From NCBI GenBank assembly GCA_031269685.1, contig JAISYU010000103.1, forward strand, positions 1 to 40,637: DNA of 40,637 nt, in the 5' to 3' direction. The position numbers and the translations under genes are program-made. Under the pieces are notes generated by a model. The model saw only the letters and a list, made by a program, of their open reading frames with translations. It did not search any database and had not been told where the DNA came from. Positions 1,137-1,333 of the stretch are shown in pieces (the first letter of the stretch is position 1; every line of letters starts with the position of its first letter). This DNA is from Dysgonamonadaceae bacterium (GTDB lineage Bacteria > Bacteroidota > Bacteroidia > Bacteroidales > Azobacteroidaceae).

Positions 1137-1288
1137 TAGGAAATATTGCTGAACTTTCTCGCGTATGAAATATTTTTTTATTATCTCGCGCCCGTGCGAA
1201 TATAATAAGGAATGAATGGGTGCGATGTGTGTGTGTGTGTGTGTGTGTGTGTGTGTGTTAACAAAATATTTGACACCGCCAAATTATT
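1137..1288 (-). repeat. Dispersed repeat, copy A (inverted relative to copy D)
   Basis: Read on the minus strand this segment closely matches the plus strand of 40400-40569. Shared parts are the TGTCAAATATTTTGTTAA block, a CA microsatellite, the CCTTATTATATT block, GCGAGATAATAAAAAAATAT and a CAATATTTCCTA / GGAATATTTCCTA end. Differences are mostly single bases plus length changes of 15 bp in the CA tract and 3 bp after it. Weaker similarity continues on both sides, up to the promoter and down towards array 1. Confidence 0.88.
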
Positions 1289-1333
1289 AGAGGTATTTCC
1301 TGAAAAAACTTTGCTGATAGCAATACTTGTCAT
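1181..1333 (-). CDS. Leader ORF A, 50 aa with a (HT)n tract (hypothetical)
   Basis: This 50-codon frame starts about 14 nt after the predicted transcription start of the minus-strand promoter at 1354-1386. It begins MTSIAISKVF, continues through AVSNILLT into five HT repeats encoded by the CA microsatellite, and ends with SHPFIPYYIRTGAR and TAA. The 72-aa frame at 40307-40525 shares SNILLT, the HT tract, FIPYYI, the final AR and the stop. The length differences (15 nt in the tract, 3 nt after it) keep the frame, which favours translation, but the DNA itself is also conserved, so an untranslated element remains possible. The function is unknown. Confidence 0.35.
   Translation of the reverse strand: MTSIAISKVFSGNTSNNLAVSNILLTHTHTHTHTHTSHPFIPYYIRTGAR
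1226..1257. repeat. Dinucleotide microsatellite (TG)16
   Basis: Thirty-two bases of uninterrupted TG, read as CA on the minus strand, are followed by TTAACAAAATATTTGACA on the plus strand. Copy D has a 47-base tract. Tracts of this length are prone to slippage, so the length probably varies within a population. Confidence 0.97.

Follow-up and report, generated by a model that had tools for sequence, protein, structure and literature searches.

The question raised by contig JAISYU010000103.1 of a Dysgonamonadaceae bacterium (assembly GCA_031269685.1; its entire stretch of 40,637 nucleotides is referred to as the window) is what long CA/TG tracts do in two similar elements, copy A on the minus strand and copy D on the plus strand, near its two ends. 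The best explanation, which we regard as highly probable on sequence evidence, is that each copy is a phase-variable transcription attenuator that is switched by slippage at the tract. Judged by sequence comparison, A and D are two members of a large leader family found across Bacteroidota.

Copies A and D form a true inverted pair about 39 kb apart, in agreement with a preliminary description. The arms 1135-1208/40498-40571 and 1226-1287/40401-40462 matched at 88% and 94%, respectively, and a search of the own genome with copy A aligned copy D over 158 nt (E=1.5e-46). The tracts comprise 33 nt in copy A and 48 nt in copy D when the flanking A is included, the second indel amounts to 3 nt, and both leaders leave the tract in the frame that ends FIPYYI...AR-stop, which bears out the frame-preserving difference described before. 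A search for further copies, as had been suggested, revealed that A and D are not a special pair. In the genome (2.23 Mb, 125 contigs), copy A had 50 matches at about 40 places, and the pattern (TG)8-TT(N)ARYA occurred 42 times (18 forward, 24 reverse), its reversed control pattern not at all. Many copies lie at contig ends, as is expected for a repeat in a short-read assembly. Leader and post-tract modules were common to unrelated loci and diverged gradually. It had also been suggested that recombination at the inverted repeats might flip the 39 kb between A and D. The orientation and the 88-94% match of the arms would fit such an event, but A and D belong to a set of about 42 copies that are dispersed in both orientations, neither a junction nor an alternative order was seen in the assembled sequence, and no recombinase or invertase was found among the only five window proteins scanned. 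Invertons have their promoter within short inverted repeats and are accompanied by a recombinase, whereas the arms here are 39 kb apart in a family of about 42. Flipping of the 39 kb thus found no support, and we consider it extremely improbable.

Oriented in the CA direction, the copies had a common order: promoter box, leader open reading frame (ORF), conserved motif, (CA)n, often CGCGCG, often a hairpin followed by T residues, and a gene on the same strand. The box TAnnTTTG, the known -7 element of the Bacteroides housekeeping sigma factor (PMC7366714), is located about 80-170 nt ahead of the tract, and the leader ATG mostly lies within about 40 nt of it. The leader ORFs, mostly 20-45 codons long and of the form M...YLxxxNxLL-THTHTH..., enter (CA)n tracts of about 17 to 109 nt, immediately 5' of which the motif TATTTGG-N5-YCRRAT-ATTTTG-YTA is conserved. 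The box was present upstream of the tracts in 63 of 74 clusters, compared with 8 of 74 on the reverse strand and 9.0 +/- 3.2 in shuffles. An ATG-started ORF of at least 45 nt ran into the tract in 65 of the 74 upstream clusters (shuffles 14.9 +/- 3.6). The copies thus have the leader ORF entering a simple sequence repeat that characterizes attenuators of the pil1 type. A candidate RNA stem before the tract was paired in 290 of 364 cells, compared with at most 205 when slid by 1-3 columns; it was rejected, as only one of seven pairs beat the shuffled control (3 of 500) and pairing was not proven. The window and 13 loci yielded no Rfam 15 match above the gathering score. In four loci (L048, L050, L056 and L062), a G-rich motif, AAAGAGGGYGGGTGGG, replaces CGCGCG after the tract on the TG strand and adjoins a CTTTG...CAAAG inverted repeat. 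In L094, leader, tract and a downstream protein that carries a signal-peptide-like segment share one open frame (468-aa ORF), and a direct fusion would therefore be possible in some states.

The conserved-looking YLxxxNxLL-THTH reading in most copies might indicate that the Thr-His-rich peptide is itself the product, e.g. for metal binding, and that slippage alters the C terminus of a phase-variable small protein. However, nucleotides and not codons were conserved: the third positions within TATTTG and TTG-YTA do not change, a number of residues are free to vary, and in some genomes a similar motif is read in a different frame (IFGG-x-xYFxN-THTH). Furthermore, the C termini after the tract were unlike between copies, and a small protein would leave the consistent downstream gene and terminator unexplained. 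This makes a small protein as the product quite improbable. A conserved protein was rejected because conservation is at the nucleotide level and more than one frame is in use.

The attenuator reading centers on the exit from the tract. As (CA)n contains a stop codon in no frame, its length only selects the exit frame. The regions downstream of the tract were analyzed for 161 loci, which formed 95 clusters. In 91 of these, one exit frame was open for at least 110 nt past the tract, compared with 36.6 +/- 4.3 in shuffles and 42 in the reverse complement, and the shortest frame reached its stop earlier than in shuffles (14.3 versus 19.0 nt). At +60 nt, one frame was open in 47 clusters, two in 45, none in 2 and all three in 1. 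Terminators were predicted for 39 clusters by a strict rule (shuffles 4.5 +/- 2.2, reverse complement 15) and for 51 clusters by a relaxed rule, which permitted 0-3 nt ahead of the T run (shuffles 10.6 +/- 2.6). In 49 of these 51 clusters, one or more frames end ahead of the hairpin, and one or more others run across it or reach it (end inside it or at most 15 nt before it). Examples are L247 (stops at +6, +14 and +127, hairpin at 71-110), L071 (+10, +17 and +177, hairpin at 45-86) and L162 (+11, +19 and +138, hairpin at 49-87). Alternative frames that end before versus within or past the terminator, a further trait of the pil1 type, were thus found.

Present states were read from the assembled tract lengths, and stops at most 60 nt past the tract were counted as early. 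The early-stop frame was present at 97 of 134 loci, while 67.7 +/- 5.3 would be expected with a random frame. The sign was equal in all three sets: 15 of the 22 own-genome copies that could be assessed (8.3 +/- 2.0 expected), 33 of 44 in the rest of the genus (24.0 +/- 3.1) and 49 of 68 in the wider Bacteroidota set, which also contains some loci from the genus of the window (35.3 +/- 3.9). The preliminary remark on the frame therefore extends beyond chance to the entire own genome. The bias fits a population that is mostly off and, at the level of assembled sequence, is separate evidence that the frame matters. It also bears on a switch at the DNA level, in which CA/TG and CGCGCG tracts would act as Z-DNA or promoter spacer independently of translation. 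The CGCGCG after the tract in many copies and the alternation of purines and pyrimidines would suit such a switch, but the promoter box is so far upstream that the tract does not set promoter spacing, and the three-frame stop pattern and the frame bias need translation. Promoter spacing or Z-DNA alone was rejected as leaving the frames unexplained, and we judge a translation-independent switch to be very improbable.

The genes downstream were also non-random. The next gene in the CA direction was on the same strand for 55 of 64 genus copies and for 64 of 69 in the wider Bacteroidota set, while the upstream gene had no strong strand preference in the genus. Signal-peptide-like N termini were found for 65 of 103 next genes (63%) versus 94 of 287 other ORFs of the same loci (33%, p=1e-7). 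The families of the next genes included BspA-type LRR (8 of 94), HU-HIG (6), SusC/RagA (6), TIG lipoprotein (3), Mfa2 fimbrillin-anchor and glycosyltransferases. Surface or appendage genes on the same strand thus follow the leaders, as in the pil1 type, together with some genes of non-surface type. A dispersed MITE-like repeat with an incidental microsatellite and no regulatory role could account for the roughly 42 similar copies in one genome, for the many copies at contig ends and for modules shared by unrelated loci. A fixed site before a same-strand gene, a promoter, a terminator and a frame design in several families with diverged flanks would, however, be unexpected for a passive repeat, and we think it improbable that the copies are nothing else.

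The sequence statistics thus established the leader ORF, the promoter, the gene strand, the predicted terminators of about half of the clusters, the three-frame design and the present-state bias of the proposed attenuator. In the mechanism that they suggest, the housekeeping-type promoter would give rise to a leader mRNA, on which ribosomes would begin at the leader ATG and translate (CA)n as Thr-His repeats. The number of CA units would fix the frame in which the ribosome exits from the tract. One or two of the three frames would present a stop after no more than a few tens of nucleotides; the ribosome would then leave the RNA, the terminator would fold, and the gene would be off. In the remaining frame or frames, the ribosome would stay on the RNA to or past the terminator, no hairpin would form, and the polymerase would enter the gene. 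The on/off state would flip when CA units are gained or lost by strand slippage. Leader translation, antitermination by the ribosome and slippage in the population are the steps that we infer. Because the logic is that of pil1 on sequence evidence, with another repeat unit and context, we view the leaders as a variant of a known mechanism.

Several points weigh against this mechanism. By the relaxed rule, about 44 of the 95 clusters are without a terminator, as are 11 of the 24 own-genome copies that could be assessed; in such clusters, another cause of attenuation would be needed (Rho, RNA decay). The terminators themselves are predictions. Kinship between clusters means that the shuffle tests somewhat overstate independence, the frame states were taken from short-read assemblies, and loci of the wider set were retrieved with a pattern that fixed part of the pre-tract motif. 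In addition, the model gives no account of this conserved DNA motif.

The features of both window copies are compiled in Table 1. The preliminary description had proposed that slippage could switch the ORF on and off. This can be retained insofar as an ORF contains the tract, the repeat type is prone to slip and the frame depends on tract length. The FIPYYI...AR frame, however, is not a protein whose loss would amount to an off switch; it represents the early-stop state of the leader, and the other two frames cross a terminator-like hairpin towards the gene. In copy A, the present frame stops at +45, and the two remaining exit frames end at 1060 and 999 (+166 and +227). The predicted hairpin (-13.6 kcal/mol, z -4.4, equally stable shuffles 0 of 200) is located 3' of the early stop and is crossed by both remaining frames. 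The putative controlled gene had no Pfam match. In copy D, the present stop is at +48, and the other two frames are open up to the contig end; the automatic relaxed terminator rule did not score its hairpin. The contig stops at 40637, ahead of any gene, and the gene of copy D lies beyond it. As assembled, A and D both show the early-stop state; under the model, a change of one CA unit in either direction would switch the gene of copy A on. A PorX-like protein, in which a response regulator is joined to a PglZ domain, is encoded at 38586-40136, immediately next to copy D on its upstream side and in divergent orientation.

Table 1. Positions of the features of copies A and D in the window.
Feature	Position	Strand	Basis or remark
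Copy A -7 promoter box, Bacteroidota type, TACCTTTG (TAnnTTTG)	1354..1361	-	sequence match; box enrichment upstream of tracts
Copy A leader ORF, MTSIAISKVFSGNTSNNLAVSNILL-(TH)n-SHPFIPYYIRTGAR, present early-stop frame	1181..1333	-	
Copy A conserved pre-tract motif, consensus TATTTGG-N5-YCRRAT-ATTTTG-YTA	1259..1285	-	pairing not proven by covariation
Copy A microsatellite (AC)16A, proposed slippage switch	1226..1258	-	
Copy A intrinsic-terminator-like hairpin (1119-1154) and T6 (1113-1118)	1113..1154	-	predicted from folding
Copy A minisatellite, ~21/42-nt units, between leader and gene	832..1100	.	
Copy A putative controlled gene, hydrophobic protein	2..814	-	truncated by contig end
Copy D -7 promoter box, TATCTTTG	40290..40297	+	
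Copy D leader ORF, MMQTNTYCPVRRMPNTEKYFITSGIVGSKLEHDLDMSNILL-(TH)n-LHLFIPYYITRRYAR, early-stop frame	40307..40525	+	
Copy D microsatellite (AC)24	40430..40477	+	
Copy D candidate terminator, hairpin (40548-40603) then T5	40548..40608	+	-17.2 kcal/mol, z -2.5

A pattern with part of the motif matched at least 98 stretches when run against 84,980 species genomes of bacteria and archaea, and all records among the matches listed were from Bacteroidota. The matches listed comprised termite-gut assemblies (Dysgonomonadaceae, Prevotellaceae, Tannerella), Segatella maculosa, Hoylesella marshii, oralis and saccharolytica, Prevotella micans, veroralis and oulorum, Phocaeicola oris, Dysgonomonas alginatilytica, Hallella multisaccharivorax, and single Flavobacteriaceae and Winogradskyella records. 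The distribution was patchy, with long tracts in 18 of 38 genomes of the genus but in no more than 6 of 393 sampled across the order. The viral contigs searched contained no match, and no viral spread was seen.

The closest analogue is the pil1/pil3 system of Streptococcus gallolyticus (Danne et al. 2014, PMC3894217). GCAGA repeats in the pil1 leader ORF shift the stop relative to a premature terminator, and the mechanism has experimental support, having been tested with start-codon, terminator and stop-codon mutants (PMC3894217). Common to both systems are a repeat in a leader ORF, a premature terminator (predicted for 51 of the 95 CA-leader clusters) before surface genes (a surface-appendage operon in Streptococcus) and a stop that is set by repeat number; the low state of the majority of cells is paralleled here by the early-stop bias in assemblies. 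In contrast, pil1/pil3 use a GCAGA pentanucleotide at two loci in one strain of a Firmicute, whereas the CA leaders have a dinucleotide unit, a TAnnTTTG promoter and up to about 42 loci per genome. The conserved pre-tract motif, CGCGCG after the tract and diverse downstream genes are further differences of the CA leaders. As the unit is CA and not GCAGA, we regard them as an analogue in mechanism and do not claim homology. The E. coli pyrBI operon has a ribosome-controlled attenuator, in which the position of the leader ribosome decides on terminator formation. Attenuators such as pyrBI and trp sense a metabolite, whereas the state of the CA leaders would be set by repeat-length mutation. Unlike in amino-acid attenuators, the tract itself supplies the His and Thr codons, and amino-acid biosynthesis families were absent among the 25 commonest downstream families, which were of surface, regulatory and glycosyltransferase types. 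The trp attenuator of E. coli likewise depends on the position of the leader ribosome (PMC3894217).

The invertons of gut Bacteroidales, members of the same order, also serve phase variation of surface products, but they use inversion by a recombinase (PMC12632263), whereas slippage is proposed for the CA leaders. A 2025 review of gut Bacteroidales ascribes phase variation to inversion, and the words slipped and tandem repeat are absent from it (PMC12632263). According to this review, the possession of multiple phase-variable capsules does not extend to oral Bacteroidales (PMC12632263), a group in which several CA-leader matches fall. Among open-licence papers, we found no report of such leaders in Bacteroidota. 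If the mechanism is true, slippage at dozens of loci in a genome would add to inversion a second general way of generating surface diversity, a mechanism from two loci of one Streptococcus would become a widespread strategy, and the on/off state of each gene would be predictable from sequence. CA leaders occur in cultured oral Prevotella relatives and in termite-gut symbiont-type genomes alike. A more far-reaching view, for and against which the balance seems about even, is that these leaders are a Bacteroidota-wide attenuator class, in which one conserved leader cassette has spread in single genomes to dozens of mostly surface genes. Clones would then carry very many on/off combinations, and the pre-tract motif would be a further functional part, e.g. 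a pause that keeps ribosome and polymerase in step.

Further repeats were observed in the window and at related loci. Minisatellites with 21/42-nt units are present elsewhere in the window (9717-10010 and 17926-18338), and such arrays, often open in one frame, separate the CA leader from the gene in L010, L013, L064, L144 and L149. Repeats of 69 nt (8294-8809) were found within a minus-strand ORF at 8203-8952. Between 23157 and 34752, three large minus-strand ORFs (853, 1145 and 1234 aa) have repeated segments in common and form a paralogue cluster, which possibly encodes surface proteins.
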